Of a stretch of DNA of 34,777 bases, positions 10,901 through 26,892 are shown one piece after another (the stretch's first letter is position 1; each line of letters begins with the position of its first letter). Source of the stretch: a bacterium (GTDB taxonomy: Bacteria > Patescibacteriota > Minisyncoccia > Phycocordibacterales > PALSA-1337); NCBI GenBank assembly GCA_021782175.1, contig JAJXVL010000003.1, positions 1 to 34,777 on the forward strand, in the 5' to 3' direction. The position numbers and the translations under genes were made by a program. A model generated the notes under the pieces. The model saw only the letters and a list, made by a program, of their open reading frames with translations. It was not told the DNA's origin and did not search any database.

Positions 10901-10993
10901 ACCCCGTTCCTTTATAATAATAGCTCATATGTCAGAAAAAGTCAATAATAATATTTATCGCCAGTGCCGAGTGGCTCTGTTACAATGGCATTC

Positions 10994-12763
10994 ATGCAAA
11001 TGAAAGAAGTTTTGATACAGAGGTTGTCTGCTCTAGCCGAGGAGGCCGGTTTGGCTGCCGATCTGGTCACGGTTGGTTATCCGGAAGATGCCACCAACGG
11101 TGATTTCACCACCAATCTGGCTCTGGTAGGAGCCAAATCACTCAAACTCTCCCCCAGAGCTTTGGCGGACAAGCTCATAGCCGCCGCCACGGGGAAGTGG
11201 CCTGATTTCGTTGCTGAAGTTTCGGTCGCCGGGCCAGGCTTCATCAACTTCAAGATCAAGCCCGATTCTCTGACCAAACAAATCATCATGATGGCTTCGC
11301 ACATCAAGTCTGGTGCCAAGTCGGGTGATTGGTTGAAATCCAATTTGGCGGAAATGCGCGCCGGGGAGGCTGGTGCCATCACGGCTCCGGTGATGATCGA
11401 GTATACTGATCCAAATATTTTCAAAGTTTTTCATATCGGCCATTTGATGTCGAATACGATCGGCGAATCCATATCGCGCTTGATCGAAGCAAGCGGCACG
11501 CCAGTCATCCGTTTGTGTTACCCGGCTGACATTGGTCTCCATGTGGCCAAGGCTGTCTGGGCCGTCCAGAAAAATCTATCTGAAATGCCAGCTGATCAGG
11601 CACCCATTGCTCTGCGTACCGCCTTCTTGGGACGAATGTATGTTCTCGGCACCCAGACTTATGATGCCGATCCGGTCGCCAAGGCCGAGATCGATGAATT
11701 GAACAAGAAGTTGTATGAGGGTACGGACCCGGCGGTTCAGAAGATCTATCATCGAGGCCGCACCTGGAGTCTAGATCATTTCGAGGAGCTCTACCGGATT
11801 CTGGGTACCAAGTTCGATACTTATTTCTATGAGAGCAACATGGCCCCGATCGGTCTCTCGGTGGTCCGCCAAAATCTCGGCAAAGTTTTTGTCGAGAGTG
11901 ATGGAGCTATCGTTTTCCACGGGGAAGAACACGGTCTGCACACACGTGTCTTCGTGAATTCGCACGGTCTGCCGACTTATGAGGCCAAGGACTTGGGCTT
12001 GAATATCACCAAATTCGAGCACTATCCAGAAGCGGCCCAGTCCATCATCGTGACGGCCAGCGAACAGAACGAGTATTTCAAAGTAATGCTCAAAGTTTTG
12101 AGTCTGGTGGATGAGCGTGATGGGTCCAAGACCAAACATATCGGTCACGGTATGATGCGTTTCGCCTCCGGCAAGATGTCCTCGCGCACTGGCAATGTCA
12201 TCACCGCGGAAAGTTTGCTCTCTGATATGCGCGAATTGGTGCGAGCCAAGATGGCTGAGCGGGCCGAGACTCTGGATCCCGGCGAAGCTGATAAGATTGC
12301 TACCCAGGTAGCCATTGCCGCTATCAAATACACTATCCTGCGCCAGACTGTCGGCAGTGATATCGTTTTTGATTCGGCCAAGTCGATTTCTTTCGAGGGC
12401 GATTCTGGCCCATACCTGCAATACGCGGCGGTGCGTGCGGCGGCCGTCCTGGCCAAGGCAAACGCCGCGGGCATCAAGCCGGCCGAGAAAATTCCTGCCA
12501 GCATGGTGCCGGGCCAACTGGAGCGGCTCCTGGGGCGGTTCGCGGATGTTATGGCTCGGGCCGGCCTCGAGCAGGCGCCGCAATTAGTGGCTACTTATCT
12601 CATTGAGCTCGCTGCGGCCTTCAATAGTTTCTATAGTGATCATACGATCGCCGATCCGGCTGAGCCGCAGGCCCCGTATCGCGTGGCTCTGGTCCAAACT
12701 TTCCTCGCGGCCATGACTGACGGTTTGTGGCTCTTGGGTATCACGGTTCCGCGGTTGATGTGA
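10994..12763 (+). CDS. argS: Arginyl-tRNA synthetase
   Basis: EYTDPNIFKVFHIGHLMSNTIGES, GEEHGLHTRVFVNSHGLPTYEAKDLGL, MSSRTGNVITAESLL. Start at 10994 (TACAAT 7 nt upstream) or 11000. Confidence 0.97.
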   Translation: MQMKEVLIQRLSALAEEAGLAADLVTVGYPEDATNGDFTTNLALVGAKSLKLSPRALADKLIAAATGKWPDFVAEVSVAGPGFINFKIKPDSLTKQIIMMASHIKSGAKSGDWLKSNLAEMRAGEAGAITAPVMIEYTDPNIFKVFHIGHLMSNTIGESISRLIEASGTPVIRLCYPADIGLHVAKAVWAVQKNLSEMPADQAPIALRTAFLGRMYVLGTQTYDADPVAKAEIDELNKKLYEGTDPAVQKIYHRGRTWSLDHFEELYRILGTKFDTYFYESNMAPIGLSVVRQNLGKVFVESDGAIVFHGEEHGLHTRVFVNSHGLPTYEAKDLGLNITKFEHYPEAAQSIIVTASEQNEYFKVMLKVLSLVDERDGSKTKHIGHGMMRFASGKMSSRTGNVITAESLLSDMRELVRAKMAERAETLDPGEADKIATQVAIAAIKYTILRQTVGSDIVFDSAKSISFEGDSGPYLQYAAVRAAAVLAKANAAGIKPAEKIPASMVPGQLERLLGRFADVMARAGLEQAPQLVATYLIELAAAFNSFYSDHTIADPAEPQAPYRVALVQTFLAAMTDGLWLLGITVPRLM

Positions 12764-12797
12764 TAAAGTTGTAGCTGAACCCAGCACAAAATTTGCC

Positions 12798-13217
12798 ATG
12801 AAAAAAATCGAGATGGTCCGAGTCGTCGGGCCAGTCAGTCAATTCCTCTCCACGATTTCGGAAGAGGAGAGACAGCAATTTGACCTGCTCCTAGGGCAGA
12901 TCAACAAGCGGCGGTCCGGCAGCGCAGCTGAACGGCAAAAGTTCCTGCATTTTGTCGACGGCCTGATTGCTTTCAAGTGTCTCCAGCGTGAAGCTGGCAG
13001 TATACCCGAGGCTCTGTCTGGCCGACTCAATCCATGTTGTGTCGGCATGACTGAGCGAATCGCTCTTTTCCTAGGGGGAGATTTGCTAACCATGGCTCTA
13101 GGAAGGGGCCGAACCAGGGAAGCCACAGCCTTCCTGAACGCGATTCTTCTCATTGCCTATGATATGTACCTGCGCTTTCCGCTCAAGGTGCATGCCCGAT
13201 CCTACGAAACAGTTTGA
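12798..13217 (+). CDS. Hypothetical protein (139 aa)
   Basis: Plausible ORF between argS and a good terminator; no family recognised. Confidence 0.65.
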   Translation: MKKIEMVRVVGPVSQFLSTISEEERQQFDLLLGQINKRRSGSAAERQKFLHFVDGLIAFKCLQREAGSIPEALSGRLNPCCVGMTERIALFLGGDLLTMALGRGRTREATAFLNAILLIAYDMYLRFPLKVHARSYETV

Positions 13218-13233
13218 TCGGTAAGCTTCACAA

Positions 13234-13256
13234 CGAACCTCAGGGTTCGTTTTTTG
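13234..13256 (+). terminator. Rho-independent terminator
   Basis: ACGAACC-TCA-GGGTTCG-TTTTTT. Confidence 0.9.
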
Positions 13257-13309
13257 TTTTTCCAGACCTGCTTCTTGACTCAGCACCCCCCCTGTGAGAG
13301 AATTATTGC

Positions 13310-14161
13310 ATGAAATCAGCTCGGTTTGGTTCACGCCGATTGCGCGATGGTTTTTGCCAATTCCGCGCCTTCACTCTCATTGAACTTCTGGTGGTGATAT
13401 CTATCATCGGTCTTCTGGCATCTGTGGTATTGGTTTCACTCAACAGTGCCAGAGCCAAAGGACAGGTTGCCGCCGGTCTACAACTGGATTCGAATATATA
13501 TCAGACCACCGGCGTCAATCTGGTAGGTGAATATAAGTTTACTGATGGTTCAGGCAGTACACTCACAGACTCTTCAGGTAATCATTACAACGGTGTCCTG
13601 ATCAATGGCCCGACTTGGGTTAATGGCGATACACCTACCGGTGCTGGATACTCATTGAAATTAAACGGTGCCAGCCAATATGTGAATGTTAGCGGTATAC
13701 CATTAAATTTTAATAATATAACTGTTACCGCCTGGATCAAGGAGAACCAAGTTACAGGCAGTAATCAAACCTTTGTTATTGCGAGTACAGGTAATGTTTA
13801 CGGTGGTTTTTTGAGAGATGATGGCGCTGGACATTATGAATGGGATGTTTACTCCAATGCAGAGTATAATCTATATGTTCCGATCGCTTCTTATAATCAG
13901 TGGCATTTTTTGGCTGGTACTTATGACGGCACAACGCAAACAATTTATATTGATGGAACCAAGGCGGCGTCTCGGTCTCTCAGTGTCAACACTTCTCCGA
14001 CTACCAATCTGGCGATAGGAGCTTGTGATTTTTGTGGTCCAGGGCAATTCACCTATGGACAGATCGCGGAAGTGCGTGTTTACAGTAGTGCCCTCACTGC
14101 TGCTCGGATACAAAGTATCTATGCTATGGATTCTAAGAAATATTTAGCTCTCACAAGATAA
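13310..14161 (+). CDS. Type IV prepilin-like protein with LamG/concanavalin-like domain
   Basis: RAFTLIELLVVISIIGLLASVVLVSLNSARAKG, then GEYKFTDGSGSTLTDSSGNHYNG...YSLKLNGASQYVNV...ITVTAWIKE...GTYDGTTQTIYIDGT...GQIAEVRVYSSALTAARIQSIY. Confidence 0.92.
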   Translation: MKSARFGSRRLRDGFCQFRAFTLIELLVVISIIGLLASVVLVSLNSARAKGQVAAGLQLDSNIYQTTGVNLVGEYKFTDGSGSTLTDSSGNHYNGVLINGPTWVNGDTPTGAGYSLKLNGASQYVNVSGIPLNFNNITVTAWIKENQVTGSNQTFVIASTGNVYGGFLRDDGAGHYEWDVYSNAEYNLYVPIASYNQWHFLAGTYDGTTQTIYIDGTKAASRSLSVNTSPTTNLAIGACDFCGPGQFTYGQIAEVRVYSSALTAARIQSIYAMDSKKYLALTR

Positions 14162-14225
14162 ACCAAATGATGATAAAACCGGTCTATGATTGAAATAGAG
14201 CCCTTTTTGCCGTAAGCTGTAGCTC

Positions 14226-17200
14226 ATGTCAAACAACCCGTCCGTTTCTCCCAATCCCGAACCGACTGACAAGCCGGCTCGCGTCCTGCGCGAAGAAGCC
14301 ACGCTCAAAAAATGGCAGGAGCAGGATATTTTTGGCCAGACGCTGAAGAAAGCTTCGCCGCGCGGCGAATTTACTTTCTATGAAGGACCGCCGACGGCCA
14401 ATGGTCATCCGGGCATTCACCATCTCGAAGCCCGTGCTTTCAAGGATGCTATTCCGCGCTATCGCACCATGCGTGGCTATCATGTCCGCCGCAAGGGAGG
14501 TTGGGATACACATGGTCTGCCGGTGGAGCTCCAGGTGGAGAAACAGCTCGGTCTCAAATCCAAGAAGGAGATCGAGTCCTACGGTGTGGAGGCTTTCAAT
14601 GAGAAGTGCAAGGAGTCCGTCTGGACTTATGTGCATGAATGGGAAGACTTCACCCGCCGCATGGGGTACTGGGTGGACCTCAATGATCCTTATGTTACCT
14701 ACAAGCCCCAATATATAGAATCAGTCTGGAATGTGATCAAAACCGCTGATGACAAAGGTTTGGTCTACAAGGATTACAAGGTCGTGCCTTGGTGTCCGCG
14801 TTGTGGTACGGCCCTGTCATCGCACGAGCTCGCTCAGGGCTATGCCGATGTGAAGGATATGTCGGTGACGGTGAAGTTTAAGGCTAAGCCAAATCAAAAA
14901 ATTGGGAATCTTGTTACTGACGACAAAACTTTTATTTTGGCTTGGACGACTACACCCTGGACATTACCTGGCAATGTTGGATTGGCTGTTAACCCAAATA
15001 TTCAATATGTCCAGATAGATATGGATAAACAGTCCGTTGATGATAAAGGCAAGTACATTTTAGCTTCTGATCGAATGATTGTTTTGGAGGAGAAAGCAAA
15101 GAAAAAAGACACAACAAAGCCTTTCTATATAGATAACTTAATTTATGGAAAAGAATTAGTCGGCCTCGAATACGAGCCGCTCTACCCATTCTTGCGAGAC
15201 AATATCTCGCATCATGAGAAGGACAAGCTCGTGAATGCCTTCAAGGTCTATGCGGCTGATTTTGTCACCACGACTGACGGTACGGGCATCGTGCACACGG
15301 CGGTGATGTACGGTCAGGACGACTTCGAACTCGGCACCAAGGTTGGTTTGCCGAAGCATCATCTCGTCCACGAAGACGGCACTTTCAAGAAGGAGTGCGG
15401 CTTCCTGGCGGGAGCTTTTGTGAAAGACGAAGGGACCGAGGTAGCCATCATCAAGGATCTCGCCGGCCGCGGCCTCTTGTTCGCCAAGGAGAAGTATCAG
15501 CACAGTTATCCATTTTGCTGGCGCTGCAAAACACCGCTCATCTACTTTGCCCGCGATAGCTGGTATATCCGCATGTCTGAATTGCGCGAGAAGATGATGG
15601 CTGAAAATGAAAAAATCCACTGGGAACCAGGCTATATCAAGGAGGGCCGTTTCGGTGAATGGCTCCGCGAGGTCAAGGATTGGGCTATCTCTCGCGAGCG
15701 CTATTGGGGTACGCCGCTGCCGATCTGGACTTGTCATCAATGTCACGCCCGCAAGGTCGTTGGCTCGATCGCTGATGTCACGCAGACGCCCAAGAACCAT
15801 TATTTCGTCATGCGCCATGGTGAGGCTGAGGATAATGTGAAGAATATCCTGAACTCTGACGAAAAAGTCGCCAACCATCTCACGGCTCATGGCCGAGCCA
15901 AAGCCACCGCTACGGCAGAAACCCTCAAGGCTCAAAAAATCGACTTGATCATTGCTTCGCCTTTGCCGCGTACACAGGAGACAGCCAAGATTGTCCAGCA
16001 GACTGTCGGTTTGCCGGCTGACAAACTGATTACCGACAAGCGTATTCGCGAGATGGGTCTGGGTGAGCTCGATGGTCATAGTCTGGATGAGTTCATGAAA
16101 GTTTTTCCTATGAGTGTGGGTCGCTTCGATCCGGCGCCGCGGGGCATTGAGAGTTATGCCGCGCTCAAGAAGCGCATGGGTGACTTCCTCTATGACATCG
16201 AGAGCAAATACGCCGGCAAAAATATCCTCATCGTCACGCACGGTAGTCCGGCCATGATGCTCATGGCCGCAGCCGCTGGCTGGGATCGGAGCGAGACTAT
16301 CGCTTATGAAAAGGATCATTATATCCACAAGGCCGAGGCCCGCCCACTCGATTTCCGCATCGTGCCGCACAATACGGAGTATGAGCTGGATCTGCACAAG
16401 CCTTTTATCGATGAGGTGAAGCTTACTTGCGCTTGTGGTGGGGAAATGCACCGCGCCAAGGAAGTCTTGGATGTTTGGTTCGATTCCGGCTCCATGCCTT
16501 TTGCGCAGGATCATTATCCTTTCGGAGGGTCGAAAGCCCGCGGTTGGCGCGCTTGGTTCGGCGGCGCCAAGGAACAAAAGATAGCTTATCCGGCCGACTT
16601 CATCTCTGAAGCCATCGACCAGACGCGTGGTTGGTTCTACACTCTGCATGCCGTCGGAGCTATTCTCGGCAAGGGTCGGGCCTACAACAATGTCATCTGT
16701 CTCGGCCATATTCTCGACGCCGAGGGCAAGAAGATGTCCAAGTCACTCGGCAATATCGTTGACCCGATGATGCTCATGGATCGTTATGGTGCCGACGCCC
16801 TGCGTTTCTGGATGTATTCCATCAACCAGCCGGGCGAGTCCAAGAACTTCGATGAGAAGACCGTCGACGAGGTGGTCAAGAAAGTTTTCAACCTAGCGGC
16901 CAATGTGGCTTCGTTCTACGAAATGTACGCCAAGCCCGAGGTGATCGTATCGCGGGATTCAAAGAATGTGCTCGATCGCTGGATCATCGCCAAGCTTGAT
17001 GAGTTGACCGTGACCGTAACCAAACATCTCGAAAGTTATGTTTTTTTCGAGCCGACGCGTGCTATCCGCGATTTCATTGCCGACTTGTCGCAGTGGTATC
17101 TCCGCCGTTCGCGTGACCGCTTCAAGGAAGAGGGCAGCGGCAGAGTGGAAGCTCTGCAGACTACGCTTTATTTCCTGTTGACGCTCACCAAGATCATGGC

Positions 17201-17753
17201 ACCATTCACGCCATTCTTTGCCGAGGAGCTCTATCAGAATGCCGGTGGGACCAAGGACAGTGTGCATCTGGAAGATTGGCCGGAGGCAGGAAAAATTGAT
17301 CAGACCCTCATCAATGATATGGAACTGGTACGCAAGGCTAGTTCGCTTGGTTTGGAGGCGCGCATGAAAGCCAAGTTGAATGTCCGCCAGCCTCTAGCCA
17401 CTCTCTTTGTCAAAGACCAGAAGTACCAGAAGCTTGAACCGGCTCTGGTGGAGCTCATTCAGGCCGAAGTGAATGTGAAGCGAGTTGTCTTCGATTTGAC
17501 TCATGCCGAGGAAGTAGTCCTTGATCTCGAGATCACCCCCGCTCTCAAGGAAGAAGGGGAACTGCGCGAACTTCTGCGCAAGATCCAGGATCTGCGCAAG
17601 GAAAAAGGTCTGACCGTCAATGACATGGCGATTCTCTCAGTCCCTGAAGAATTCAAGGCACTGATCTCCAAGAATGAGACCGAAATCAAGCGTCTGACCA
17701 AACTGGTCAAACTTGAGCCTGGCGCGACTCTGGACTTGCGCCGCAGCGAGTAG
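14226..17753 (+). CDS. ileS: Isoleucyl-tRNA synthetase with inserted histidine-phosphatase domain
   Basis: GPPTANGHPGIHH, GGWDTHGLPVELQVEKQLG, TTTPWTLPGNVGLAV, DVWFDSGSMPF, KKMSKSLGNIVDP; histidine-phosphatase motifs in the middle. Confidence 0.97.
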   Translation: MSNNPSVSPNPEPTDKPARVLREEATLKKWQEQDIFGQTLKKASPRGEFTFYEGPPTANGHPGIHHLEARAFKDAIPRYRTMRGYHVRRKGGWDTHGLPVELQVEKQLGLKSKKEIESYGVEAFNEKCKESVWTYVHEWEDFTRRMGYWVDLNDPYVTYKPQYIESVWNVIKTADDKGLVYKDYKVVPWCPRCGTALSSHELAQGYADVKDMSVTVKFKAKPNQKIGNLVTDDKTFILAWTTTPWTLPGNVGLAVNPNIQYVQIDMDKQSVDDKGKYILASDRMIVLEEKAKKKDTTKPFYIDNLIYGKELVGLEYEPLYPFLRDNISHHEKDKLVNAFKVYAADFVTTTDGTGIVHTAVMYGQDDFELGTKVGLPKHHLVHEDGTFKKECGFLAGAFVKDEGTEVAIIKDLAGRGLLFAKEKYQHSYPFCWRCKTPLIYFARDSWYIRMSELREKMMAENEKIHWEPGYIKEGRFGEWLREVKDWAISRERYWGTPLPIWTCHQCHARKVVGSIADVTQTPKNHYFVMRHGEAEDNVKNILNSDEKVANHLTAHGRAKATATAETLKAQKIDLIIASPLPRTQETAKIVQQTVGLPADKLITDKRIREMGLGELDGHSLDEFMKVFPMSVGRFDPAPRGIESYAALKKRMGDFLYDIESKYAGKNILIVTHGSPAMMLMAAAAGWDRSETIAYEKDHYIHKAEARPLDFRIVPHNTEYELDLHKPFIDEVKLTCACGGEMHRAKEVLDVWFDSGSMPFAQDHYPFGGSKARGWRAWFGGAKEQKIAYPADFISEAIDQTRGWFYTLHAVGAILGKGRAYNNVICLGHILDAEGKKMSKSLGNIVDPMMLMDRYGADALRFWMYSINQPGESKNFDEKTVDEVVKKVFNLAANVASFYEMYAKPEVIVSRDSKNVLDRWIIAKLDELTVTVTKHLESYVFFEPTRAIRDFIADLSQWYLRRSRDRFKEEGSGRVEALQTTLYFLLTLTKIMAPFTPFFAEELYQNAGGTKDSVHLEDWPEAGKIDQTLINDMELVRKASSLGLEARMKAKLNVRQPLATLFVKDQKYQKLEPALVELIQAEVNVKRVVFDLTHAEEVVLDLEITPALKEEGELRELLRKIQDLRKEKGLTVNDMAILSVPEEFKALISKNETEIKRLTKLVKLEPGATLDLRRSE
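15790..16365 (+). other. Histidine phosphatase (phosphoglycerate mutase-like) domain inside IleS
   Basis: HYFVMRHGEAEDN, LIIASPLPRTQETAKIV, IREMGLGELDGHSLDEF, NILIVTHGSPAMML. Confidence 0.9.
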
Positions 17754-17783
17754 ATTCGCGGCACCAAGCTCAACCGGCATCAT

Positions 17784-18365
17784 ATGTATAGCGTCCACAC
17801 CACCCCCGGTTTCATCATCAATGCTCAACCTTATGGCGAAGCCGGTAAAGTGCTGCAGATTTTCACTAGGGACTTGGGCCTAGTGACCGCCATTGCTCAA
17901 GGTATCCGTCTGGAAAAATCAAAGTTGCGCTACCACACGATCGATTTGTCCCGAGGAAGTTTCTCCCTAGTGCGGGGTCGTGATCTCTGGCGCTTGGTCG
18001 GCGCAGAGGCTGATCAGAGAATCACACTGAATAGGGAAGCTCAAGCCCTGCTGGCCAGATTGGCTCAGCTACTCCGGCGTCTGCTTCAAGGTGAGGATGC
18101 TGAGCCGGCACTCTATGATTGTCTGGCGGATAGTCTCGGCTATATAGAGCGACAGAGCATCGATGGTCCGTCGACGCTCAAGCTCGCGGAAGTCCTGATA
18201 GTTTTCCGGCTCCTGCATCAGATGGGCTATATTGGTGATGATACGCGTTTCGCTGTTTTCCTGACTGAGCCGGTGATCACCGCGGACCTGGTCGAAAAAG
18301 CTTTGCCACTCAAGAAGCTCCTCGTCCAACAGATCAACCAAGCTCTTGCCGCTAGTCATCTATAG
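17784..18365 (+). CDS. recO: DNA repair protein RecO
   Basis: GFIINAQPYGEAGKVLQIFTRDLGLVTAIAQGIRLEKSKLRYHTIDLSRGSFSLVRGRDLWRLVGAE: RecO N-terminal OB-domain pattern. Confidence 0.85.
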   Translation: MYSVHTTPGFIINAQPYGEAGKVLQIFTRDLGLVTAIAQGIRLEKSKLRYHTIDLSRGSFSLVRGRDLWRLVGAEADQRITLNREAQALLARLAQLLRRLLQGEDAEPALYDCLADSLGYIERQSIDGPSTLKLAEVLIVFRLLHQMGYIGDDTRFAVFLTEPVITADLVEKALPLKKLLVQQINQALAASHL

Positions 18366-18415
18366 TTCTCGGGTTCTATTCTCCAACCTCTGCCGCTTGG
18401 GGTATAATATGGCCC

Positions 18416-20371
18416 ATGGCCAATGAGGAACCAAATCGTTTGGAAGATCTCAAGGAATCTCTCTATTCGCGCAATGCGCCGGAGGTGCGCACTCGCCGCA
18501 AATTGCGTTTCGCTGATCGGACAGTCGATCTCAAGACTGATTGGGATCATCCTGATAGCGAAGAAGACAAGGACACGCGGGCCAAGACCGCGGCCGGTCT
18601 AGACTATCAGCCCCAAAAAAAACACATGTCTCTTTTCACCAAAATCCTCATCGCCTCGGCCATCTTCTGCGTGGCGGCTGTTTCTACCGGAGCCTACCTC
18701 TTCTTCAACGGCTCCAATTTCATTTCTGGTAATAATATTGATGTGACCATCAGCGGCCCGGTTTCTATTCCCGGCGGTACGCCTATTTCGCTGGATATCA
18801 CGGTCGTCAACAAAAACAGCGTAACTCTGAAGGGAGCGGATCTGGCTGTGCAATTCCCGGCGGGCACTACCAATCCCAATGACACGACTATTGCTCTAGA
18901 TACTCATCAGGAATTGTTGGGCGACATTGCTCCAGGCGGCTCAGTGACGCGGACTGTCAAAGCTATTATCTTCGGCGAACAGAATCTCCAGAAGGAAGTT
19001 ACCGCCACAATCACTTATGGTATCCAGGGTTCTAGTTCGGTTTTCACCAAGGTCCAGACTTATGATGTCCTGATCAATTCTTCGCCAGTGACGCTCAATG
19101 TCACTGCTCTCTCGGAAGCTTCTTCGGGTAGTAATTTTGACCTGACTGTCGATGTGCATTCAAACTCGGTCAATGTTCTCAAGAATGTACTTCTGTCGGC
19201 GGTTTATCCCTTTGGTTACAAGTTCACCAGTGCCTCACTGCCGTCGGCAGACAATAGTAATACTGTTTGGAATATTGGTGACTTGCCGCCGGGAGGCAGC
19301 CGCAGTATTACCATTCACGGTGTGTTGACCGGTGAGGATGGTGACCTTCGAGCCTTCCACTTCTCGACAGGCGCGCGCAATCCGGACTCTATCCTGGTGA
19401 TTGGTACGCCTTACGCCTCTACCGAAGCCGATGTCACGATCAAGAAACCTTTCATGTCTTTGGTTGTTTCAGTGAATAATGACAACTCTACGGCTGATTA
19501 TATTGGGAATCTGGGCCGCTCCGTCACGGTCTTCGTTCGTTGGTCCAACAATACGCCCAATCCGCTAACGAACGCGATCATCTCGGCGCATCTGACAGGC
19601 GGTGCCTATGACAAGAGCCAGGTCAATGCTCTGAGTGGTTACTTCCGCTCGATCGACGACAATATGATCTGGAATCAGCAGACCAACCAGGAGCTGGCTT
19701 CGGTCGCGGCTGGCGCTACGGGTAATGTTTCCTTTGCCATCGTGCCTTCCTTGAATCAGCAGAACAATATCATCAATCCGGAAATAACCATTGCGGCCTC
19801 GGTCACGGCTGATCGGACCGATCAGAGTAATGTGCCGCTCAATACGGAACAAGTCGTTAGGAATATCAAAGTTCCTTCGACACTGTCTCTCTCAGGCCGC
19901 GTGCTCCGTAACGAAGGACCCTTCACCAACACTGGTCCGATCCCACCCCAGGCAGAAGCCAAGACGACTTATACGATTACTTGGGCTGTCGATAATACTT
20001 CCAGTGTCGTCAACAATGCGGTAGTGACAGCCACCTTGCCCCCGTATGTTACTTGGCTCAATCAGGTTAGTCCGTCTAGTGAGGATGTTTCCTACGATAG
20101 CAACAGCGGCACGGTGACTTGGAATGTCGGTACTGTGGGTACTTACACCGCCGGTACCACACGCCGTCGCGAGGCTTCTTTCCAAGTATCTCTCTTGCCA
20201 TCAGTAGATCAGATTGGCCAAGCCCCGGTCCTAGTCAATCAGGCCAATTTGACCGGCACGGATACTTGGACCAACACCACACTCAAGGATACACAGAGCT
20301 ATCTGACAACTAGCTATAGCACGGACAGTTCCTTCCAGAATGGTTTCGAAACGGTAGTCAAAAAACCCTAG
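18416..20371 (+). CDS. Membrane-anchored protein with DUF11-like extracellular repeats
   Basis: N-terminal cytoplasmic segment, one TM (LFTKILIASAIFCVAAVSTGAYLFF), then repeats such as PPGGSRSITIHGVL and VVTATLPPYVTWLNQVSPSSEDVSYDSNSGTVTWNVG. Confidence 0.85.
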   Translation: MANEEPNRLEDLKESLYSRNAPEVRTRRKLRFADRTVDLKTDWDHPDSEEDKDTRAKTAAGLDYQPQKKHMSLFTKILIASAIFCVAAVSTGAYLFFNGSNFISGNNIDVTISGPVSIPGGTPISLDITVVNKNSVTLKGADLAVQFPAGTTNPNDTTIALDTHQELLGDIAPGGSVTRTVKAIIFGEQNLQKEVTATITYGIQGSSSVFTKVQTYDVLINSSPVTLNVTALSEASSGSNFDLTVDVHSNSVNVLKNVLLSAVYPFGYKFTSASLPSADNSNTVWNIGDLPPGGSRSITIHGVLTGEDGDLRAFHFSTGARNPDSILVIGTPYASTEADVTIKKPFMSLVVSVNNDNSTADYIGNLGRSVTVFVRWSNNTPNPLTNAIISAHLTGGAYDKSQVNALSGYFRSIDDNMIWNQQTNQELASVAAGATGNVSFAIVPSLNQQNNIINPEITIAASVTADRTDQSNVPLNTEQVVRNIKVPSTLSLSGRVLRNEGPFTNTGPIPPQAEAKTTYTITWAVDNTSSVVNNAVVTATLPPYVTWLNQVSPSSEDVSYDSNSGTVTWNVGTVGTYTAGTTRRREASFQVSLLPSVDQIGQAPVLVNQANLTGTDTWTNTTLKDTQSYLTTSYSTDSSFQNGFETVVKKP

Positions 20372-20439
20372 ACTTATCATTCAATAGGGTAGGTTTAGAA
20401 GCGTTGCGTGAGCAGTGTCTTCTAGGCTAGAATGCCCTC

Positions 20440-21756
20440 ATGCCCAAAAAAGAAGATCTCATGGAGATGCTCGTTTCGCTAGCCAAAAGGCGTGGCTTTA
20501 TTTTCCAAGGCTCGGAAATATACGGTGGCTTGGCCGGAACCTGGGACTATGGTCCCTATGGCGTGGCTCTGAAGAATAATATCAAGGCTCTCTGGTGGAA
20601 GCGCTTCGTCACGGATCGTGATGATATGTATGGCATGGACGCGGCTATCCTCATGAATCCGCGCACCTGGGAGGCGACTGGTCATGCGAGTGGTTTCTCA
20701 GATCCGTTGGTGGAGTGCAAGAAGTGTCATCATCGCTTCCGCGAAGACCAACTCACTGATCCCAAGAAGTGTCCTGATTGCGGCGGTACATTCGGCGAAG
20801 TAAAACAATTCAACATGATGTTCAAGACACAGGTAGGCGCTACTGGCGAGGCCTCCTCGATTTCCTACCTGCGCCCCGAGACTGCCCAGGGCATGTTCGT
20901 GAACTTCAAGAACCTGATGGATTCCCAGCATCCGGCTATGCCTTTTGGTATGGCTCAGATCGGGAAGGCTTTCCGGAATGAGATCGCCCCGCGAGACTTC
21001 CTCTTCCGCTCGCGTGAATTCGAACAGATGGAAATCGAGTATTTCGTTGATCCGAAAGATTGGGAGAAGACCTTCGAACATTTCCGCGATGAAGTGCACG
21101 CCTTCAACAATGATATCGGTCTCAAGCGCGAGCAAGTCCACGAGCTCGAAGTGCCGGATGCTGACCGCGCTTTCTATTCCAAGCGTACGATCGACTTCGA
21201 ATTCGACTTTCCGTTTGGCCGCAAGGAGCTCTATGGTCTGGCCTATCGCACGGACTATGATCTCACGCGCCACGCCGAATACAGCAAGGTAGACCTATCC
21301 TATTTTGATGAGGCCGAGAAACGCCGCTTCACCCCGCATGTGATCGAACCGTCTTTTGGTGTTGATCGTTCACTCCTGGCTGTTCTCTCGACGGCTTATA
21401 CCGAGGACGAGATGGGCGGTGAGAAGCGTGTCTTCTTGAAGTTTGCTCCGGCTGTAGCTCCGGTCAAAATCGCTGTTTTTCCGCTCCTGAAGAATAAGCC
21501 TGTCCTGGTTGAAAAGGCTCGTGATATCTTCAGAATGCTCAAAAAGGAATTTGGGGCCGTGGAATTCGATGATAATGGTAATATCGGCAAGCGCTATCGC
21601 CGCCAGGATGAGATCGGTACGCCGTACTGTGTGACTGTAGACTTCGACACCATTGAGAAGAATGCTGGTGTGACCGTGCGTGATCGTGATACTGGTAAGC
21701 AGGAGAGAGTGGCGGAAGGCAGCTTGCTGGATTATCTCCGAGGCAAAATCAAATAA
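20440..21756 (+). CDS. glyS: Glycyl-tRNA synthetase (single-chain type)
   Basis: YGGLAGTWDYGPYGVALKNNIKALWW, CKKCHHRFREDQL...CPDCGG, RPETAQGMFVNFKN, EFEQMEIEYF, PHVIEPSFGVDR. Confidence 0.97.
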   Translation: MPKKEDLMEMLVSLAKRRGFIFQGSEIYGGLAGTWDYGPYGVALKNNIKALWWKRFVTDRDDMYGMDAAILMNPRTWEATGHASGFSDPLVECKKCHHRFREDQLTDPKKCPDCGGTFGEVKQFNMMFKTQVGATGEASSISYLRPETAQGMFVNFKNLMDSQHPAMPFGMAQIGKAFRNEIAPRDFLFRSREFEQMEIEYFVDPKDWEKTFEHFRDEVHAFNNDIGLKREQVHELEVPDADRAFYSKRTIDFEFDFPFGRKELYGLAYRTDYDLTRHAEYSKVDLSYFDEAEKRRFTPHVIEPSFGVDRSLLAVLSTAYTEDEMGGEKRVFLKFAPAVAPVKIAVFPLLKNKPVLVEKARDIFRMLKKEFGAVEFDDNGNIGKRYRRQDEIGTPYCVTVDFDTIEKNAGVTVRDRDTGKQERVAEGSLLDYLRGKIK

Positions 21757-21805
21757 AATAGGTCCACTAGACTTGGCGGTGTTTCTATTGTATAAATCCT
21801 GACGG

Positions 21806-22210
21806 ATGAATATCCCAACTTGTTTTGACATTGCTCAGATGTCGGCGATTGGTCTGCGCCAGTTGCCCGGCCGACACAAATTCTTCCTCCCAGCGGAAGT
21901 CGACAGTCTGGAGAGGCAGTTCCTTCTCTTCGAACTCGTGAAGGACTGCTCTCCTCAGGTTGTTTTTGAAAGTTTCGGTGTGGATCTTGTGGATTTGTGT
22001 CTGACTGAGGCGCAGATTCGCTGGATTGTCCATGAGCATCGCTTCTTGTTACGAGGAGACGGCGTCGCCACAGCCTTCATGTTGTACGACAAAGGAATCC
22101 AGGTTGTTCTGGAAAATCACCTCGCTAGTCACAGCATCAGATGGCTCCTCTGGGACGCTCCGGAATGTTATGGCGAACAGAGGGTGATCTTCGTGGTGCC
22201 AGTTGTGTAG
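21806..22210 (+). CDS. Hypothetical protein (134 aa)
   Basis: ORF followed by a terminator, TATAAA upstream; no family recognised. Confidence 0.6.
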   Translation: MNIPTCFDIAQMSAIGLRQLPGRHKFFLPAEVDSLERQFLLFELVKDCSPQVVFESFGVDLVDLCLTEAQIRWIVHEHRFLLRGDGVATAFMLYDKGIQVVLENHLASHSIRWLLWDAPECYGEQRVIFVVPVV

Positions 22211-22218
22211 TTTGTTCC

Positions 22219-22242
22219 AGCCTCGTTTGACGGGGCTTTTTT
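22219..22242 (+). terminator. Rho-independent terminator
   Basis: AGCCtCG-tttga-CGgGGCT-TTTTT. Confidence 0.7.
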
Positions 22243-22287
22243 GTTGGCTTATTGGCCAAGTATAGCCGCATATAGTACGATAAGCCC

Positions 22288-22938
22288 ATGCATATCAAAA
22301 AACTCAAACATTGCTGTATGGTGATCAAGGTTCCGGGTCAAGGAGGTAAACATACGGTCATCGTCACAGATCCGGGGTCGTACTCGATCGAGGAACATGA
22401 CAAGATCGCTTATGCCGATATTATCCTGATTACCCACGAACACGCCGACCACTTCCATCTCGAATCGGTCAAAGCTCTCGCCAAACGCTCGCCCGGTGTC
22501 TCGGTGATTGCCAATGATGCTGTCGGTGATCTTCTTGCGCGAGAGGGAATCGAGCACCACATCATGAAGCATGGTAACGCCATCGAGGTAAAAGGTGTTC
22601 ATCTTGAAGCTTATGGCGAGCTCCACGCCGTCATCCATTCGTCTTTGCCGCGTGTATCCAATGTGGGGTTTCTTATCGAGAATAAACTCTTCTATCCTGG
22701 TGATGCTATGGTTGATCCGGAGAAGCCTGTCGATGTTCTGGCTCTGCCGGTGGCTGGTCCTTGGATCAAGATCGGTGAAGCTGTCGACTATGCTCTCCAA
22801 GTGAAGCCGCGCTTGGCTTTCCCGGTACACGATGCCGTCCGTAGCGCCTTCCAGCACACTCTTCCGGAAATGGTTCTTTCCCAGAATGGAATTGAGTTCA
22901 TCAAGCTGGAGGATGGCGGCGAATTCGAAGTGAAGTAG
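22288..22938 (+). CDS. MBL-fold metal-dependent hydrolase
   Basis: ILITHEHADHFHLESVKAL, FYPGDAMVDPEKPVDVLALPVAGPW, FPVHD. Confidence 0.9.
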   Translation: MHIKKLKHCCMVIKVPGQGGKHTVIVTDPGSYSIEEHDKIAYADIILITHEHADHFHLESVKALAKRSPGVSVIANDAVGDLLAREGIEHHIMKHGNAIEVKGVHLEAYGELHAVIHSSLPRVSNVGFLIENKLFYPGDAMVDPEKPVDVLALPVAGPWIKIGEAVDYALQVKPRLAFPVHDAVRSAFQHTLPEMVLSQNGIEFIKLEDGGEFEVK

Positions 22939-22940
22939 TA

Positions 22941-22974
22941 AGCATATCAGACATATGCATATGTCTGATATGCT
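22941..22974. repeat. 34-bp perfect palindrome
   Basis: AGCATATCAGACATATGCATATGTCTGATATGCT equals its own reverse complement. Confidence 0.97.
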
Positions 22975-22989
22975 AATATCTGTACTATC

Positions 22990-24261
22990 ATGAAATTTAC
23001 CAAAACTACTTTGGCCAACGGTCTCCGTCTAGTGACTATACCTATTCCGGAGAACCCTTCGGTGACCGTACTGGTCATGGTGGCGGCCGGCTCCAAATAC
23101 GAGACCAAAGATATCTCGGGGATTTCGCATTTCTTGGAGCACATGGTTTTCAAAGGGACTCCGCGTCGACCAAGCGCCAGTGATATTTCGAGAGAGCTCG
23201 ATGCTATCGGGGCTCAGTACAATGCCTTCACCTCCCAAGAGTTTACCGGCTATTACGCCAAGGCTGATGCCAAGCATCTCGATCGGGTGCTCGACGTGGT
23301 GGCTGATATGTGTCAGAACCCACTCTTTGATGAGTCAGAGATTGCCAAGGAGAAGGGGGTGATTATCGAGGAGTTGCGTATGTACCGCGATTTGCCACAA
23401 CACCGGGTTCATAATGTGCTGACCAATCTGCTCTATGGTGATCAGCCAGCCGGCTGGGAAGTAATCGGCACAGAAGAAACAATCAAGTCTTTCACGCGTC
23501 AGAGTTTCTTGGAATATCGAGCTCATCACTATGTAGCTTCAGCTACAACTGTGGTCGTCTCCGGCAACCTAGAAGAAGTCTCAGTTCGTAAGGCCGTGGA
23601 GCAAGCCTTCGACAAGATTTCCACGGAAGGGAAGGGCTCCAAATTGCCAGTCCTAGAAAAACAAACTGCTCCAGCTCTGCGTATAGAAGCCAAAGACACC
23701 GATCAAACCCACTTGGTCCTGGCGGTGAGAACCTTTCCGATACTCGATAGTCGCGCACCGATCATGCAAGTACTCACGGCGGTACTTGGTGGTGGTATGA
23801 GCTCCAGACTTTTCAGTAAAATGCGTGATGAGCTCGGTATTTGCTATTACATTCGAGCTTCTCATGATCCATCAACTGATCATGGTTCCTTCACTATCGC
23901 GGCCGGCGTTGATAATAGTCGAGTGGTCGAGGGTCTCCGAGGTATTATCGGTGAATGTCGTCGGCTCAAGGATGAGCTGGTACCCGCTGCCGAACTGCAA
24001 AAGGCCAAAGATTACCTCGCAGGTACGACCATGCTAGAGCTCGAAACTTCTGATGCTCAAGCCGAGTTTGTTGGCTTGCAGGAAATCCTCAAATCGCAAG
24101 TCGAGACACCTCAGGAATTCATTGCCAAAATCAGCGCCGTGACAGCTGAGCAGATTCAAACTCTGGCCAGGGAAATCTTTGTCGATAAGGGCTTGAATCT
24201 GGCTCTCGTCGGACGCTCCAAAGAACAAGATCTTCGACCAATCCTGACTTTCCAGGCCTAG
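22990..24261 (+). CDS. M16 family zinc peptidase
   Basis: GISHFLEHMVFKGTPRRPSASDISRELDAIGAQYNAFTSQEFTGYY (inverted HxxEH motif). Confidence 0.95.
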   Translation: MKFTKTTLANGLRLVTIPIPENPSVTVLVMVAAGSKYETKDISGISHFLEHMVFKGTPRRPSASDISRELDAIGAQYNAFTSQEFTGYYAKADAKHLDRVLDVVADMCQNPLFDESEIAKEKGVIIEELRMYRDLPQHRVHNVLTNLLYGDQPAGWEVIGTEETIKSFTRQSFLEYRAHHYVASATTVVVSGNLEEVSVRKAVEQAFDKISTEGKGSKLPVLEKQTAPALRIEAKDTDQTHLVLAVRTFPILDSRAPIMQVLTAVLGGGMSSRLFSKMRDELGICYYIRASHDPSTDHGSFTIAAGVDNSRVVEGLRGIIGECRRLKDELVPAAELQKAKDYLAGTTMLELETSDAQAEFVGLQEILKSQVETPQEFIAKISAVTAEQIQTLAREIFVDKGLNLALVGRSKEQDLRPILTFQA

Positions 24262-24328
24262 TTCCTAGCGAAATGAAGCCGGTCAGCGTTCTAGATAGTT
24301 ATCGTATTGATTGTGCTACAATATAGCC

Positions 24329-25432
24329 ATGCCCGACGCGCCTTTTAGCAGCAAAACCAGACTTTCGCTCTCGACTGGTACTATTGTCCGGTTTTTCATG
24401 GTGGCTATTTTGCTCTTGGCTCTCTACTATATTTCCGATATTCTGTTGCTCCTGGTGGCTTCGGTAGTTTTTGCTTCAGCTGTAGAGCCGATTGTCCTGC
24501 GCCTGACACGCTACAAGCTCAACCGTATTCTGGCGGTAATCTTCGTCTATTTGGCCATCGCTTCGGTCTTGGGTTTCCTCATTGCTTTCTTCGTGCCGAT
24601 GGTCGTCAATGATCTTCTGACCTTCCTGGCCAACTTGCCCAAAACTATTTCGCTCGAAGACTTGTGGACGCCGATCCAGAGTATGGGCTTCCATGTCGGT
24701 TCGACCGCTCTGGCTCCCGGCGCTATTTCGCTTTCAGACTTTGTGAATGGCTTGCGCGGTCTCCTGGTCGGCAGCTCGGCCGGCGCCTTCCAGACGGCCA
24801 GCGTGCTCTTCGGTGGTTTCTTCGGCTTCACCTTGATCGTAGTCTTGTCATTCTATCTATCCGTCCAAGAAGAGGGTGTGGCGGACTTCCTGCGTATTGT
24901 TTCGCCGACCAAGCATCACGACTATGTCATTGATCTGTGGCGCCGCTCACAACGCAAGATTGGCTACTGGCTCCAGGGTCAGCTCTTGCTCGGGGTAGTG
25001 GTTGGTGTGCTGGTCTATCTAGTCCTCATGGTTGTCGGTATTCAGCACGCGCTGGTCTTGGCGATTCTTGCCGCCGTTTTCGAAATCATTCCGGTTTTTG
25101 GTCCGATCATCAGCTCTGTGCCGGCTATCCTGATCGCCTTTGCTCAAGGCGGAGTAGGCACCGGTCTGCTCCTGATCGGTCTTTACATCATCATCTATCA
25201 GTTCGAAAGTCAGCTTTTCTATCCGCTGGTGGTCAAGAAGATCGTGGGTATCTCGCCGATTGTGGTCATCTTGGCCTTGGTGATTGGTGCCAAGCTGGCC
25301 GGCTTGCTGGGTGCTATCATCGCGGTGCCGCTCTCGGCCGCTCTCATGGAATATGTTCATGATATCGAGAAGTACAAGAAGCAGGAGATTGCCGAGAGAG
25401 CCGTGACGAACAGCCATCATACCGAGTCATGA
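24329..25432 (+). CDS. AI-2E family transporter-type membrane protein
   Basis: Multi-TM protein: LGVVVGVLVYLVLMVVGIQHALVLAILAAVFEIIPVFGPIISSVPAILIAF, PLVVKKIVGISPIVVILALVIGAKLAGLLGAIIAVPL. Confidence 0.93.
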   Translation: MPDAPFSSKTRLSLSTGTIVRFFMVAILLLALYYISDILLLLVASVVFASAVEPIVLRLTRYKLNRILAVIFVYLAIASVLGFLIAFFVPMVVNDLLTFLANLPKTISLEDLWTPIQSMGFHVGSTALAPGAISLSDFVNGLRGLLVGSSAGAFQTASVLFGGFFGFTLIVVLSFYLSVQEEGVADFLRIVSPTKHHDYVIDLWRRSQRKIGYWLQGQLLLGVVVGVLVYLVLMVVGIQHALVLAILAAVFEIIPVFGPIISSVPAILIAFAQGGVGTGLLLIGLYIIIYQFESQLFYPLVVKKIVGISPIVVILALVIGAKLAGLLGAIIAVPLSAALMEYVHDIEKYKKQEIAERAVTNSHHTES

Positions 25433-26892
25433 AGGAAAAACCGTTTTATATTACGACCACCCTGCCATATGTCAACGCAGAGCCTCATGTCGGGCATGCG
25501 CTAGAGTTTATTCGGGCTGATATCATTGCTCGCTGGCAGAGCCTGACTGGCCATGAAGTCTTCTTCAATACCGGCACCGACGAACACGGCAGCAAGATTT
25601 ACCAGAAGGCCGCTCAGGCGGGGATTTCGACACAAGCTTTCGTCGATCAGAATGCGGCCAAGTTCAAGGAGCTTTTGCCACTTCTCGGTATCCAGGACAA
25701 GGTCAACTTCGTGCGGACCACGGATCCCCATCACATCGCGGCCGCCCAAGAGTTCTGGCGCCGAGTAGCCAAGAACGGCTATATCTACAAGAAAGACTAT
25801 GCCATCAAATATTGCGTTGGTTGCGAATTGGAAAAAACTGATTCAGAGCTTGTGAATGGTCGTTGTCCATTGCACCCGCTCCAGGAGCTTGAGATCATTC
25901 AAGAAGAGAATTATTTCTTCAAATTCAGTGCCTTCGGTCCGAAGTTAGCGGCTTTCTATGAAGCTCACCCGGACTTCGTGGTGCCGAATTTCCGCTACAA
26001 CGAGATCAAGGCTTTTGTCAGCCGCGGCCTGGAGGACTTCAGTATCTCCAGACTCAAGAGCAAAATGCCCTGGGGTATCGAAGTACCTGATGATCCAAAT
26101 CAGGTGATGTATGTCTGGTTCGATGCGCTGGTGAACTATATTTCTGCCATTGGTTGGCCCGACGATCAGGTCCGTGGTGAGACAGTGCCGGGGGCTTTCG
26201 AGAAATGGTGGGTTCTCTCTGGCGGGGTAGTGCAGTACTGTGGCAAGGACAATCTGCGTCAGCAGAGCGCCATGTGGCAAGCTATGCTCATGGCAGCCGG
26301 TCTACCACCTTCACGGACGATTGTGATAGACGGTTTTGTAACTGGTGAAGGCGGCGTCAAAATGTCCAAGTCTCTCGGCAATACCATCGACCCTCTGGAG
26401 ATTATTCATGAATACGGCACAGAAGCCATGCGCTATTTCGTTTCGCGCGAATTATCGCCGTTCGAGGATAGTCCTTTTACCAAGGAGAAATTCAAAGAAG
26501 CCTACAATGCCAATCTGGCCAACGGTGTCGGTAATCTGACCAGTCGCATCATGAAGATGGCCGCCGACAATCTACCCCAGCCGATCTCTCTGCCGGCCGT
26601 GGAGTATCCGGAGGCTTATCGCCAAGCTATGGATGCTTACAATATCCAGGCGGCTGCCAATATCATCTGGCAGGAAATAGGGGAGGCTGATCGGATCATT
26701 CAGAGTCAGGCGCCCTTCAAGCTAGTCAAGACCGATCGTGAGGCCGCTCTGCTCATCATCAGTGATCTGGTCGCGCGGTTGTACAAAGTCGCTTATTTAC
26801 TCGCGCCGATTTTGCCAGAGACCGCGGAGACGATTCGAGGTTTGGTGGAGGGCAATAGTATGCCGACCGCGCCACTTTTCCTGAGGAAGTAA
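25429..26892 (+). CDS. metG: Methionyl-tRNA synthetase
   Basis: TTTLPYVNAEPHVGHALEFIRADIIAR, FNTGTDEHGSKI, VIDGFVTGEGGVKMSKSLGNTIDP; ATGA overlap with the previous stop. Confidence 0.97.
   Translation: MKEKPFYITTTLPYVNAEPHVGHALEFIRADIIARWQSLTGHEVFFNTGTDEHGSKIYQKAAQAGISTQAFVDQNAAKFKELLPLLGIQDKVNFVRTTDPHHIAAAQEFWRRVAKNGYIYKKDYAIKYCVGCELEKTDSELVNGRCPLHPLQELEIIQEENYFFKFSAFGPKLAAFYEAHPDFVVPNFRYNEIKAFVSRGLEDFSISRLKSKMPWGIEVPDDPNQVMYVWFDALVNYISAIGWPDDQVRGETVPGAFEKWWVLSGGVVQYCGKDNLRQQSAMWQAMLMAAGLPPSRTIVIDGFVTGEGGVKMSKSLGNTIDPLEIIHEYGTEAMRYFVSRELSPFEDSPFTKEKFKEAYNANLANGVGNLTSRIMKMAADNLPQPISLPAVEYPEAYRQAMDAYNIQAAANIIWQEIGEADRIIQSQAPFKLVKTDREAALLIISDLVARLYKVAYLLAPILPETAETIRGLVEGNSMPTAPLFLRK

Follow-up and report, generated by a model that had tools for sequence, protein, structure and literature searches.

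The ileS locus analyzed here raises the question of why an isoleucyl-tRNA synthetase (IleRS) would carry a whole histidine phosphatase (HP) inside its own chain. The gene lies in a window, i.e., the entire stretch of DNA that was analyzed, of 34,777 nucleotides from a patescibacterial genome. Patescibacteria are a major bacterial radiation with tiny genomes, from which most metabolism is missing.

Structure of the ileS gene and its inserted domain

A sequence-only reading of the locus had described a single uninterrupted ORF of 1175 amino acids, in which a phosphoglycerate-mutase-like domain with its full set of catalytic motifs is situated inside IleRS, after the editing domain and ahead of the KMSKS half. 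Our analysis agreed with this description. The gene occupies positions 14226..17753 of the forward (+) strand, as do all of its parts described below, and is read in a single frame as a type 2-like IleRS with a nested phosphatase. Pfam analysis of the 1175-aa protein identified two stretches of tRNA-synt_1, His_Phos_1 and Anticodon_1, and the whole protein matched the NCBIfam ileS model (TIGR00392) at 885.7 bits, above the curated cut-off of 621.4. This was the single copy of IleRS found in the genome of the window (84% complete).

With respect to the class I synthetase motifs, KMSKS is intact (aa 836-840; 16731..16745), and the HIGH signature is present as the GXHH form, G63-I-H-H66 (14412..14423). 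A HIGH variant of the GIHH type is known to be active in IleRS2, and the GXHH or AXHH signature of type 2 IleRS has been linked to mupirocin hyper-resistance (PMC10485003). The window protein has the type 2 GXHH signature (GIHH, aa 63-66), and its nearest structures are those of IleRS2; the best match of the synthetase in both structure and sequence is Priestia megaterium IleRS2 (8c8w; PMC10485003), at 33% identity in a structural alignment, and the GXHH signature is held in common with the hyper-resistant IleRS2 (PMC10485003). The same signature was present in 32 of the 45 single-insert IleRSs that were read, and the IleRSs with two HPs have HxGH. We rejected a link between the insert and the GXHH signature because HxGH is found in these tandem-HP IleRSs and in the second IleRS type of the window's genus. 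The AXHH variant of the HIGH motif was observed in L083 and L122.

The borders of the guest were determined by comparison with the insert-free IleRSs L095 and L096, of which L095 is from the same order as the window (...CGTCKQFTVLGSMQELKERSRERVPDNLDLHRPF...) and served as the reference. The guest, comprising the histidine phosphatase and short linkers, extends over aa 519-719 (15780..16382) and takes the place of approximately 12 loop residues of L095. The borders proposed earlier, 15790-16365, were thus correct in location but slightly too narrow. The insertion point is in the second zinc-knuckle loop, after the second CxxC knuckle and ahead of the DLHKP strand. One half of this motif, C503xxC506 (15732..15743), directly precedes the insert, and the other half, C735xC737 (16428..16436), follows it; the zinc-knuckle role of C503xxC506 follows the one established for T. 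thermophilus IleRS.

The His_Phos_1 (PF00300) core covers aa 527-691 (15804..16298) and scored 114.6 bits against a gathering cut-off of 21.7, in agreement with the genome scan. All residues of the catalytic set of branch-1 histidine phosphatases are present, namely R530 and the phospho-accepting H531 of the RHG motif (15813..15818), which are invariant among the aligned inserts, the second catalytic arginine, R582, in SPLPRTQETA (15969..15971), the acid/base glutamate, E609, in IREMG (16050..16052) and the second catalytic histidine, H672, in VTHG (16239..16241). No PF00300 protein other than this IleRS was found in the 84% complete genome of the window. A role in a defense system was considered and rejected, as PADLOC gave no match.

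Upstream of ileS is the arginyl-tRNA synthetase gene argS (10964..12763, +). Four synthetase genes are located within 16 kb (10964-26892): argS, ileS, a proS-like class II synthetase gene (20440-21756; tRNA-synt_2b and HGTP_anticodon) and a metG-like gene (25429-26892). Directly upstream of ileS, a pilin-like protein (N_methyl) with a Laminin_G_3 domain is encoded at 13310-14161. A RecO-like gene (17784-18365) lies downstream, and it is followed by a gene for a DUF11 surface-type protein of 651 aa (18416-20371), two genes downstream of ileS.

Distribution of the fusion in Patescibacteria

Examination of IleRSs from CPR genomes, which the sequence-only reading had proposed, revealed that the insert recurs widely among Patescibacteria. 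A query spanning the junction gave a one-frame match in approximately 55 of 60 relatives; a few of the others are broken by contig ends, and one (G056) is cleanly insert-free. In a sample of the order with one genome per genus, an HP was located within a frame of at least 790 aa in approximately 62 of 69 genomes, with these frames confirmed as IleRS or ValRS only in a subset of the 69. Where a genome of this sample had a single HP (n=24), that HP was in such a frame in 23 cases. Among 380 Patescibacteria, the ileS model was split by a large insert in 16 of 17 members of the order, 9 of 15 of the class and approximately 40 of 348 others, counts that are an estimate read from the score table. 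Named carriers include Paceibacterota, Nomurabacteria, Zambryskibacteria, Yanofskybacteria, Giovannonibacteria, Sungbacteria, Peregrinibacteria and Peribacteria. Insert-free IleRSs are also common within Patescibacteria.

The junction-spanning query matched none of 251 Chloroflexota genomes and none of 97 genomes of the Micrarchaeota phylum, and the non-Patescibacteria IleRSs among the homologues returned had short spacing and no insert. A Myxococcales IleRS frame (L152:1736-5863) is longer than usual, at 1376 aa, and lacks an HP.

The window comes from a fragmented metagenome-assembled genome (MAG), which might suggest an assembly chimera, but the same junction was found in dozens of independent assemblies, including the single-contig genome G037. 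Moreover, the GC content of the insert (0.53-0.55) equals that of the surrounding gene and is even across the junctions. Because the junction is present in most relatives of the order, in G037 and in the named, independently assembled MAGs L116-L136, neither chance nor a chimera explains it, and we assign the latter a vanishingly small probability.

Histidine phosphatases at several sites of IleRS and ValRS

Patescibacterial IleRSs were found to contain one, two or three HPs, distributed over four sites (A, A', B and C). IleRSs with two HPs are 1440-1550 aa in length and carry them at site A, before the DLHK strand, and at site A', after it. The L078 IleRS combines site A with site C, which is between the catalytic and anticodon domains, and the 1572-aa IleRS of L093 (L093:2167-6882) has three HPs, at A', C and site B, the latter following the WFESG...HYPF stretch. 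HPs were also found in valyl-tRNA synthetases (ValRSs), at no fewer than two sites, in L068, L069, L073 and L091, as well as in L222, which was assigned by sequence reading. In the ValRSs of L068 and L073, a Ser_hydrolase domain (RBBP9-like, alpha/beta serine hydrolase) is located just before the HP, and the L068 ValRS also has a HAD-like hydrolase domain nested within its editing region. Elsewhere in Patescibacteria (L106-L110), HPs are fused at the C terminus of a 2-hydroxyacid dehydrogenase, an MFS transporter, a NUDIX protein and a VTT (DedA-type) protein. The sequence-only reading had missed both this recurrence, in IleRS and ValRS and in one to three copies, and the type 2 nature of the host with its GIHH motif.

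Conservation of the inserted phosphatases

Conservation of the RHG and VTHG residues in homologues, on which the sequence-only reading had depended, was evident in single, two-HP and ValRS-borne inserts alike. In 19 junction segments with identity down to 32%, R46, H47, S94, R98, E125, E158, R166 and H188 (alignment numbering) were invariant. The complete R-H-R-E-H set was found in 64 of 66 single inserts, the exceptions being one Glu-to-Asp replacement and one truncated domain, in 28 of 28 HPs of the two-HP IleRSs and in all four of the ValRS-borne HPs that were checked. In L093, the set is intact in two HPs, and the third has Asp in place of Glu. In close pairs, dN/dS, derived from the listed dN and dS only where dS was unsaturated, was approximately 0.05-0.11 for the HP and 0.06-0.09 for the C-terminal half of the synthetase.

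The full-length AF2 model, based on 23 aligned sequences, had a pLDDT of 88.6 and a pTM of 0.81, with values of 83-96 (pLDDT) in the HP stretch, and its synthetase part superposes on the IleRS structures 8c8w and 1ile. A model of the HP domain folded alone and without an alignment was poor (pLDDT 46) and was left unused. At the level of sequence, these comparisons establish that the HP is under purifying selection, with a predicted fold and active site that are intact. A degenerate passenger was ruled out by the catalytic conservation and the dN/dS values.

Repeated capture and exchange of the phosphatase

In an 84-row tree of HPs, the inserted domains were scattered over several places, and the trees were weakly resolved. 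Approximately unbiased (AU) tests rejected the grouping of every inserted HP in a single clade (p 1e-6), so that these domains would have no single origin, and also rejected a single clade of the ValRS HPs (p 0.0025). We conclude from this phylogenetic evidence that HPs have probably been captured several independent times by IleRS and ValRS. A single clade for both HPs of the two-HP IleRSs was not rejected (p 0.08), and a simple tandem duplication may be their source; the two copies are located at different sites (A and A') and in different parts of the tree. Furthermore, on a 155-row tree of IleRS bodies, which includes one duplicate of the window gene, the presence or absence of the HP requires at least 12 changes (gains and losses pooled), 10 of which are forced by well-supported branches.

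The surroundings of ileS were read in 20 insert-free genomes, and in two of these a separate HP gene is present upstream of ileS on the same strand. The order in G333 is argS, HP and ileS, end to end, and that in G391 is argS, HP, two small frames and ileS, with argS recognized by sequence reading in both. The argS-ileS neighborhood is thus common to the window and to the two genomes with a separate HP gene. The G333 HP nests with the inserted HPs of L094 and L131 (support 100/98) and, because of this position, may be either a released guest or a donor line.

In three species of the window's genus (L223, L224 and L235), the IleRS body belongs to a distant HYGH type and is approximately 50% identical to that of the window, but the HPs share 47-49% identity with the window HP, a range also found for genus mates with bodies 66-71% identical to the window's. 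The window's genus is rejected as a clade by the body data (p 3e-5) but not by the HP data (p 0.28), and a grouping according to body type is mildly rejected by the latter (p 0.043); for these p-values, the pattern was noticed before testing and there was no prior hypothesis. Within the genus, the HP evolves faster than the IleRS body. These results indicate that the HP and the IleRS body have recombined and that, in the window's genus, the body was exchanged around a genus-like HP. The opposite arrangement is seen in L014 and L029, whose HPs share 41% identity and whose IleRS bodies (C-terminal half) share 78%, pointing to replacement of the guest on much the same chassis.

Relationship of the insert to known phosphatases and synthetases

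By profile comparison, the closest solved HPs are PhoE (1ebb/1h2e), PspA (4ij5) and CobC (6nru), with E values of 2e-28 to 1e-25. These belong to the same fold family as the window HP and have the same catalytic residues, but they are free-standing enzymes, whereas the window HP is a nested guest. The window HP scored below the curated cut-off of every named NCBIfam equivalog, including CobC (alpha-ribazole phosphatase; 78 bits vs 162.9) and PspA (phosphoserine phosphatase; 58.6 bits vs 350). Therefore, a substrate is not transferable from the named families.

The archaeal-type dPGM was the top NCBIfam match of the domain, at 93.5 bits, which might suggest that the insert is the phosphoglycerate mutase (PGM) of lower glycolysis. 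However, this score is far under the cut-off of 225 (dPGM NF038349, TIGR01258), and dPGM structures align over only the first ~110 positions, the phosphatases being the better solved relatives. In addition, the window's genome has a separate PF01676 protein of the type and size of cofactor-independent PGM, and the HP occurs both in relatives with PF01676 (16 of 40) and in those without it. We consider a PGM role to be highly improbable.

The closest precedent is that of the CAAD synthetases of cyanobacteria, in which one domain was repeatedly inserted inside class I synthetases (PMC4893482). CAAD occurs in ValRS, IleRS and others, within one phylum and at more than one site, and is absent elsewhere (PMC4893482). 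A separate homologous gene beside the synthetase gene in some relatives is a trait shared by the two systems (PMC4893482). In contrast, CAAD lacks enzymatic residues and is a membrane anchor, and the patescibacterial guest is a complete HP with conserved catalytic residues and up to three copies per protein. The Pfam scan of the window IleRS detected no CAAD (CURT1-like membrane) domain, His_Phos_1 being its only guest. NCBIfam NF040702 (ileS_w_GNAT) is a named IleRS family with an added domain of enzymatic type, in this case an N-acetyltransferase; the window protein scored 311.6 against its cut-off of 1999. Mycobacterial MutT1 joins a histidine phosphatase to a nucleotide-handling enzyme, as does the patescibacterial NUDIX-HP fusion (L109), but its HP is fused C-terminally to NUDIX, unlike the insertion into the synthetase of the window. 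IleRS2 is not known to carry a phosphatase insert, and a search of open-access literature yielded no description of HP or PGM domains in synthetases.

Possible functions of the tethered phosphatase

The explanation that we prefer, for which the case appears to us evenly balanced, is that the inserted domain is a predicted catalytically competent, tethered phosphomonoesterase of the PhoE/CobC/PspA type, whose linkage to IleRS has been selected. It would hydrolyze a diffusible phosphomonoester via the usual phosphohistidine mechanism, with the phosphate accepted on H531 in the attack step and E609 acting as the proton donor. Selection would keep the attachment because both the quantity and the location of the phosphatase are thereby linked to the translation machinery, and not for a fixed-geometry hand-over of substrate between both active sites. 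The variable sites, the ValRS cases and the neighboring genes suggest that the HP need not hold a fixed geometry relative to the editing or synthetic site, and we therefore favor a tethered enzyme acting on a diffusible phosphomonoester over direct coupling and over a passenger. Against this explanation, the fusions of HP to unrelated proteins mark it as a frequent fusion partner in Patescibacteria generally, and the abundance of insert-free IleRSs in the phylum implies that the HP-IleRS linkage is not universally needed. We suggest, more tentatively, that phosphatase activity might have been selected repeatedly as a third function of IleRS, and sometimes of ValRS, in addition to aminoacylation and editing, and that it might act on a metabolite connected with the charging of tRNA, a reading that includes the several captures, the four sites and the retention of the HP through exchange of the synthetase body.

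The sequence-only reading had suggested that the domain could act on an aminoacyl-adenylate, another phosphorylated by-product or a tRNA end. If the HP were coupled directly to aminoacylation, it would clear a product, side product or inhibitor arising at the synthetase and thereby make charging or editing faster or cleaner; candidates would be AMP, the phosphate at the end of a tRNA, and breakdown products of Ap4A or of a misactivated adenylate. The capture of HPs more than once by IleRS and ValRS, two related editing synthetases, and by no other synthetase seen so far, the persistence of the HP when the IleRS body was exchanged and the presence in some IleRSs of two or three copies that look active are in line with such coupling. 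However, the four sites of IleRS, the two or more of ValRS and the separate gene beside ileS offer no shared geometry and weaken the case for a direct channelling role, which makes direct coupling unlikely in our estimation. We are also doubtful that the HP is a passenger at permissive sites, i.e., a needed phosphatase that is merely tolerated in the loops of a long essential enzyme, that has no function in its position and that could not easily be lost after the free copy had disappeared. Such tolerance would fit an HP that is often the sole one in its genome, the HAD-like and alpha/beta serine hydrolases likewise inserted in ValRSs, and the unrelated fusion partners; the exchange of HPs on one chassis in L014 and L029 could be compatible with a passive passenger, too. 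Nevertheless, several independent captures by IleRS and ValRS, an operon-like neighborhood with ileS where the HP is a separate gene and multiple retained copies would probably exceed a neutral expectation. Finally, nesting in a large enzyme and the faster evolution of the HP relative to the body in the genus might point to a non-catalytic structural or regulatory module, but the catalytic residues are kept in HPs down to ~30% identity, extra copies included, and we regard such a module as very improbable.

Implications

Guest domains in synthetases usually add targeting or complex formation. The guest described here is an entire enzyme whose active site is conserved; it is found across Patescibacteria and has apparently been captured repeatedly by IleRS and ValRS. 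The exchange of domains between distant types of IleRS (GXHH and HYGH) in one genus bears on the spread of antibiotic-relevant synthetase types. Altogether, the recurrent capture suggests an unexplained tie between the phosphatase reaction and tRNA charging, and it raises the testable question of which phosphoester is tied to isoleucine or valine charging in symbiont-like cells.
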